Shown: positions 62,426-64,000 of the stretch, in pieces
Numbering within the stretch: position 1 is the stretch's first letter
Layout of the letters: the number at the start of each line of letters is the position of its first letter
Assembly: GCA_016869765.1 (NCBI GenBank)
Contig: VGES01000006.1
Span: 1-64,000 of the forward strand
Length of the DNA stretch: 64,000 bases
Reading direction: 5' to 3'
DNA from: Alphaproteobacteria bacterium
GTDB taxonomy: Bacteria > Pseudomonadota > Alphaproteobacteria > SHVP01
Position numbers and translations under genes: made by a program
The notes under the pieces: model-generated
Seen by the model: only the letters and a program-made list of their open reading frames with translations
The model's database searches: none
What the model was told of the DNA's origin: nothing

Positions 62426-63094
62426 TCAGACGTGGGCGGCGACCGGTCGGGCAAATCGATGACGGCCGATTGCTCCAAAGACGAGAACGACCAGCGCCAC
62501 GCTGCCGAGATGCCAGACCAGCACCATCACGGCGGCGCTGAGGCCGTGGAACAGATCGAGCGCCGCCGAGGCAAGGGATGCGACGGCAAGAGCGCCGGTC
62601 AAGGCCGTGGCCCAAGGCCGAATCGACGCGCCATGGCGGACCATAGCGTAGAGCAGCCCGCTCAAGGGAATGCTGGTCAGAACGATCGTCGCGAGACACA
62701 TGAAGCTCGTCCCGAGCGCGAGGCCGTCTGGACCCAGACGCAGCCAATCGCTGTAGCAACTGGCGCCAAGGGCCAGGAGCCAAAGCGCCAGGGTGGGCAA
62801 CGGCACCAAGCGCCACGCCTCGCCGCGGTCGGGAAGGGTCAGGTGGAACGCGGCCACGGTCGCGAGCACGCCGGTCGTGATCGACGCGAGCCACGGGACG
62901 AGCACGTCGATCCGGCTCAGGTGGTCGGCCAGATCGGGGCGGGGGCCCATGACCAGGACGATGGTCGCCAACAATACCAGCGCCGCGCCGAGCCAAATCG
63001 CACTTCGCAGGAGTGGCGGGGCCAGCGGCCGTACGGGAACGGCCTCGGCGGCCAGGCGGGCGATCAGGTCCTCGGTTGGTCGAGGGTCAGCCAT
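62426..63094 (-). CDS. nrsF: NrsF/DUF1109-type negative regulator of ECF sigma factor
   Basis: six-TM protein (MADPRPTEDLIARLAAEAVPVRPLAPP...) overlapping/adjacent to ECF sigma. Confidence 0.82.
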   Translation of the reverse strand: MADPRPTEDLIARLAAEAVPVRPLAPPLLRSAIWLGAALVLLATIVLVMGPRPDLADHLSRIDVLVPWLASITTGVLATVAAFHLTLPDRGEAWRLVPLPTLALWLLALGASCYSDWLRLGPDGLALGTSFMCLATIVLTSIPLSGLLYAMVRHGASIRPWATALTGALAVASLASAALDLFHGLSAAVMVLVWHLGSVALVVLVFGAIGRHRFARPVAAHV

Positions 63095-63659
63095 GACCAC
63101 CCCCCAGACGCTTGCGTAGGGACTTGACGGCGCGATGCGTCGCCACTTTGAGGGCCGTCGTCGACATGCCGGTCATCGTCGAAGCCTCTTTCAATGACCA
63201 TCCCTGAACCTTGAGCAACTCGATCGCCTGTCTCTGGCCCTGTGGCAGGGATGCCACCGCAGCCGCCACGTCGCGGCGGCGAAACACGTTCTCTTCGGTG
63301 TTCGGCACTTCGCCCCACAAGGTTTCGTCGTCCAGAACCAGTTCGGACTCCCGCACTGAACGCCGACCAAGCAACTGCAAACGATCGGCGATCCGACGTC
63401 GCGCGATGGTCGCCAGCCAGGGCCGGAATGGCCGAGTCGGATCATAGGTCCGCCGCGCCTGGTGCAACGATAGGAGGATGTCCTGGACGGCGTCCTCGAT
63501 CTCCTCCGGCGCGCGTAGCTGACGCCCGGCGAACCGTCGAAGGTAGGGTAGAAGCTCGCCGAGCAGCGCGGCGTAGGCGCCACGGTCGCCCGACTGGCCG
63601 GCGGCCATCAGCTGCGCCCAGCGCCGATCCAAACCCTCTCTCGAGACTGGGTCCGTCAT
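63087..63659 (-). CDS. ECF RNA polymerase sigma factor (SigF-like by context)
   Basis: QLRAPEEIEDAVQDILLSLHQARRTYDPTRPFRPWLATIARRRIAD; sigma4 ASLPQGQRQAIELLKVQGWSLKEASTMTGMSTTALKVATHRAVKSLR. Confidence 0.93.
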   Translation of the reverse strand: MTDPVSREGLDRRWAQLMAAGQSGDRGAYAALLGELLPYLRRFAGRQLRAPEEIEDAVQDILLSLHQARRTYDPTRPFRPWLATIARRRIADRLQLLGRRSVRESELVLDDETLWGEVPNTEENVFRRRDVAAAVASLPQGQRQAIELLKVQGWSLKEASTMTGMSTTALKVATHRAVKSLRKRLGGGHG

Positions 63660-63711
63660 CACGAGTTGGTGTTCCTCCCGGAAAAGCGTGCCCAGGTTCG
63701 CGAGCGGCAGC

Positions 63712-63737
63712 GTAACCCGTCGCGCGTCACAACTGAA
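63712..63737 (+). promoter_or_regulatory. candidate ECF-sigma promoter for the DUF2282 gene
   Basis: GTAACC-N16-TGAA in the divergent region between the ECF sigma gene and the DUF2282 gene. Confidence 0.45.
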
Positions 63738-63801
63738 CAGTAAGGCGAGGGACTGCCCGCGAGGGCGGCCATCCTCGTCCCATAGGCAAAGGAGAGACCT
63801 C

Positions 63802-64000
63802 ATGAATGCTCGTCTTCTGGTGGTGGCGGCAGTTGCCGCGGCAATCGCGACCCCGGCGCTGGCCCAAGCGCCGGTCAAGGCCCCGGAGTACAAGGTCGAG
63901 AAGTGCTACGGCATTTCGAAGGCCGGAAAGAACGATTGCGCGTCGGCAGGGAACCCGCACGTCGACGCGGTGCGCCGCTACCTGGAAGGGCTTCCAGGCG
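63802..64000 (+). CDS. DUF2282 (bufferin-like, BufA1-type) precursor, truncated by window edge
   Basis: absent from ORF track; MNARLLVVAAVAAAIATPALAQAPVKAPEYKVEKCYGISKAGKNDCASAG: signal peptide plus KCYGxxKAGKNDC motif. Confidence 0.8.
   Translation, partial: MNARLLVVAAVAAAIATPALAQAPVKAPEYKVEKCYGISKAGKNDCASAGNPHVDAVRRYLEGLPG

Follow-up and report, generated by a model that had tools for sequence, protein, structure and literature searches.

The right-hand edge of this stretch of DNA raises the question whether the bufferin operon that begins there can still make a bufferin. The window, 64,000 nucleotides long, corresponds to positions 1-64000 of contig C6 (104,718 bases in total), from a draft assembly that totals 3.99 Mb over 164 contigs and is 99.6% complete and 2.3% contaminated. 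The first-pass annotation had described a bufferin-type metallophore locus at the edge, with a signal peptide and a DUF2282 N-terminus divergent from an ECF sigma factor gene and an NrsF gene, and it proposed to extend the contig to the right and to search for the rest of the operon. Contig C6 goes on past the window edge, and therefore this check could be run. Much of what follows is a comparison with the MAG Alphaproteobacteria RH-23may17-1251 (G002, contig CANJEJ010000001), which belongs to the same family as the source genome.

The kind of locus had been recognised correctly. DUF2282, sigma/NrsF, DUF2063 and DoxX are all present, and a complete collinear cluster is found in the same-family genome. 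On the minus strand, a sigF-like ECF sigma gene of 190 aa (63087..63659; Sigma70_r2 4e-15, Sigma70_r4_2 1e-10) is followed by and overlaps nrsF (62426..63094), the only NrsF gene in the genome, which encodes a full-length six-TM anti-sigma factor (PF06532 positions 1-198/204, 2.3e-25); both are divergent from the DUF2282 ORF, as annotated. The sigma start, ATG 63659, was chosen by homology with the divergent sigma gene of G002, and with this start there is no overlap with bufA. The longest ORF begins at TTG 63893 and would overlap bufA, but this start was rejected since the homologous one is at 63659. Counted from ATG 63094, NrsF has cysteines at residues 113 and 133, shared in 5/7 and 7/7 aligned sequences, respectively. 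They are 20 residues apart, as compared to 50 in Caulobacter (C131, C181), and the two pairs are not necessarily equivalent.

A sigmaF-type promoter motif, GTAACC-N16-TGAA, is located at 63712..63737 on the plus strand, 64 nt upstream of where bufA starts. It differs at one position from the sigmaF motif of Caulobacter, GTAACC-N16-CGAA (PMC3511200), the -10 element being TGAA instead of CGAA, and G002 has GTAACC-N16-AGAA at the corresponding place upstream of bufA. A looser sigmaF pattern gave 12 matches genome-wide and the reversed control 7, nearly all inside long ORFs, which means that the motif alone is not significant and that its position and conservation carry the argument. When the motif was used to look for other sigmaF targets, the matches across the genome were at about chance level.

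To the right of the window, the operon continues with bufC (DUF2063, PME-type 1, contig 64241-65020) and doxX (contig 65025-65495), both complete (PF09836 1.8e-19 and PF07681 2.6e-13). DUF2063 and DoxX thus occur in the same operon, as is characteristic of bufferin clusters, and the neighbours of the bufferin ORF carry full-length domains. The regulator, the promoter, bufC and doxX all look intact.

The genes bufA and bufB, on the other hand, are one short ORF here, in which the start of the first is joined to the end of the second. This ORF of 151 aa runs on the plus strand from 63802 to the window edge at 64000 and on to contig position 64257, and it has partial matches to both PF10048 and PF05114. 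It starts with ATG at 63802 and begins MNARLLVVAAVAAAIATPALA, directly followed by QAPVKAPEYKVEKCYGISKAGKNDCASAGN. The first of these segments (63802..63864, plus strand) is the Sec signal peptide of a bufferin precursor, as seen by inspection and by alignment with the signal of the G002 precursor, and residues 1-55 are 73% identical to G002 bufA. Then comes a residual bufferin core, EKCYGISKAGKNDCASAGN (63898..63954, plus strand), with the first two of the four cysteines. The in-window part of the ORF matches PF10048 (DUF2282) with E 9e-8 and 32.4 bits, above the cut-off of 22.4, but the match, at residues 33-50, covers only profile positions 2-19/53. It had also been assumed that the window ends inside the precursor; the ORF does run off the edge, but its bufferin sequence stops after codon 51. 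What follows, from 63955 to 64000 and on to contig 64257 on the same strand, is the C-terminal remnant of the DUF692 protein BufB. Residues 47-140 of the fused ORF correspond to positions 173-261/263 of PF05114 (MbnB_TglH_ChrH, DUF692), E 6e-25. Extending the contig has consequently given a divided answer, with DUF2063 and DoxX intact but DUF692 reduced to its last third. By chance, one such fusion in three would keep the reading frame. The frame is kept here and the start of bufC (64241) still overlaps the end of the fused ORF (64257), so that some residual use of the fusion is conceivable. A profile search of this genome found no second PF05114 or PF10048 match elsewhere.

The locus in G002 shows how the complete arrangement looks in a relative. 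There, nrsF-sigF is divergent from bufA (90 aa, full DUF2282), bufB (295 aa, PF05114 positions 2-262/263), bufC and doxX, and to the left and right of the divergent promoter the genes come in the same order as here. The sigma factors are 61% identical over 191 aa, the NrsF proteins 51% and the DoxX proteins 66%. Unlike here, bufA and bufB are complete and separate in G002, and compared with that locus about 712 nt are missing. Where 35 other loci have 719-1372 nt between the end of CYGxxxAGxNDC and xxEIHLAG, the gap here is 66 nt. The position of the junction (63940..63954, plus strand) is ambiguous within the S-A-x-N codons common to bufA and bufB. The corresponding G002 stretches, GCCTCGGCCGGCAAC in bufA and GTCTCGGCGCACAAC in bufB, are identical at 11/15 nt. 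Each codes for S-A-x-N, which is S-A-G-N in the fusion, and such a junction fits a deletion of the microhomology type. The same fusion was not found in 96 relatives, in about 110 loci or in 385 genomes of the class; in these 385 genomes there was also no DNA match across the junction, and no ORF holding both halves was seen among the other loci compared. One genome (G034, contig C12, 23346-24050) has two tandem bufferin precursor genes ahead of one bufB. Tandem bufferin precursors have already been described in the literature.

The claim of a functional bufferin fails on the parts that have been lost. Buf1 precursors have four conserved cysteines, the central two being modified and the outer two forming a disulphide (PMC12452194). 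The precursor ends here after the second cysteine, and only the first two of the four are kept in the fusion, while the relatives go on with ...SCxG...GxC past the junction. The DUF692/MNIO barrel is also incomplete, being represented by the C-terminal third that is fused in frame. MNIO enzymes fold as TIM barrels and hold a multi-iron site (PMC13097082), and therefore this third would not be expected to work by itself. When 35 BufB proteins are aligned, 17 of the 27 polar columns that are conserved to at least 95% fall in the part that is lost here; of the other conserved polar columns, eight are unchanged in the remnant. The cluster lacks a complete precursor gene and a complete MNIO gene, having the fused remnant only, and no other copy exists in the genome. 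Judged from its sequence, the locus should not make a bufferin, and the fusion gene is probably useless.

Apart from these two genes, the operon is much like known systems. In Caulobacter crescentus, sigF-nrsF and CC3254-CC3257 (PMC3511200) have the same divergent ECF sigma and NrsF genes, an operon with genes for the bufferin precursor, DUF692, DUF2063 and DoxX, and a GTAACC-N16 promoter; in contrast to Caulobacter, deletion has fused the precursor gene to the DUF692 gene here. The SigF/NrsF link to bufferin clusters is already published, for Caulobacter in that study and more generally for Buf1 clusters (PMC12452194). Bufferin-1 clusters (DUF2282/MNIO/PME-type 1/DoxX; PMC12452194) have the same gene set and order and the same sigma and NrsF partners, but here the precursor (2/4 Cys) and the MNIO enzyme are incomplete. 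It is likely that the operon is of the Buf1 (DUF2282) bufferin type with its own sigmaF/NrsF, like Caulobacter CC3252-CC3257, and that an internal deletion of about 700 nt has put it out of action. The locus can be regarded as a degenerate representative of a known operon type, and mostly as a case of ordinary gene decay.

In the intact system, as established in Caulobacter and presumed in its relatives, metal stress relieves NrsF, and the sigma factor then transcribes bufA-bufB-bufC-doxX. BufB together with BufC converts the two central cysteines of the exported BufA to thiooxazoles, and the modified BufA binds periplasmic copper. The deletion probably took place at the short similar stretch formed by the S-A-x-N codons of both genes, removing about 700 nt from just past the second bufA Cys codon to the last third of bufB. 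The switch, the promoter, bufC and doxX remain and regulation would be retained, but all that the operon should now give is a short, exported fusion protein that lacks a complete metal-binding core and a catalytic barrel.

Further along contig C6, to the right of the window, a hybrid PAS histidine-kinase gene (66538-68608, minus strand) also has an internal junction, near 67047. The PAS domains continue to about contig position 67048, and then, in another frame, come the last residues of the ATPase domain, IESTPGHGASVQLLLPE, followed by a receiver domain. The gene has thus changed frame and lost its kinase core, with HisKA and most of HATPase, in another gene-internal deletion. HATPase_c matches were also found in short frames at C43:6145-6450 and C75:6038-6259 (121 and 227 aa), one of them starting at profile position 39; these are possibly further truncated kinase genes, or effects of the contig ends.

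The fusion could also be explained if the dominant genome lacks the junction and the organism has a normal bufferin operon; the junction would then come from a chimera formed during amplification, from a strain variant that the assembler picked, or from a local misassembly. We consider this unlikely, though it deserves to be weighed. The assembly is a contaminated draft (164 contigs, 2.3% contamination), the missing 700 nt may have ended up in a short contig left out of the bin, and the kinase junction, only 3.1 kb away, makes a local technical cause more thinkable. Against this, there are no Ns, and the sequence on either side of it resembles the same G002 operon. The two genes share no more than about 12-15 nt at this point, which would be below the usual assembly k-mers. 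The ancestral perfect match can hardly have been longer than 12-15 nt, because the bufA relatives continue with NSC/HSC after the junction codon and the BufB relatives do not. So short a shared sequence makes a collapse by a k-mer assembler unlikely; an amplification chimera or a strain variant would still be compatible with it. We also considered an assembly ridden with frameshifts throughout, and rejected it after plotting codon usage by frame over 405 kb of this genome and over a 276-kb control genome. The paired frameshift signature appeared within the 405 kb only in the kinase, and 14/371 segments were flagged as compared to 11/248 in the control, a similar rate, which implies that the damage is local and not general.

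It is very improbable that the fusion is instead a functional new exported protein, a two-Cys bufferin stub with the C-terminal third of an enzyme serving for example in metal binding or substrate recognition under the same sigma factor: it is in frame, its signal peptide, promoter and translational overlap with bufC are kept, and Buf1 domains occur in other fusions (Buf1/Cytochrom_C/FGE-sulfatase, MerC/Buf1 and Buf1/Buf1 in the available text of PMC12452194), where the bufferin domain likewise lies within a larger ORF, but two of the four cysteines are gone, two-thirds of the barrel are missing, no other genome compared has it, and export would place the BufB remnant in the periplasm, apart from its partner BufC. 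The Buf1 fusions given in that text include none of Buf1 with MNIO, and neither domain is complete here. That such a protein would be retained and expressed from the sigmaF promoter with bufC and doxX, as a metal-stress protein without MNIO chemistry, is scarcely credible.

The probable inactivation of the operon by an internal deletion can be seen together with the rest of the copper defence. We found no match in this genome to PF00122 or to the Cu-ATPase model TIGR01511, for both of which 14/14 controls were positive, and three genomes of the same family have 1-4 PF00122 matches each. No P-type ATPase, and therefore no CopA-type copper exporter, was thus detected. Missing P-type ATPases and a broken bufferin operon suggest weak selection for copper defence, or else gaps in the assembly. 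The locus also shows that a reading at the level of keywords (signal peptide, DUF2282 motif, sigma/NrsF) can find the right operon and yet overlook its death. If the deletion is real, it would be a natural loss of a bufferin in which the sigma switch, the promoter, bufC and doxX were left in place, and it would offer a small natural case for the role of the regulator and of DoxX without the peptide.
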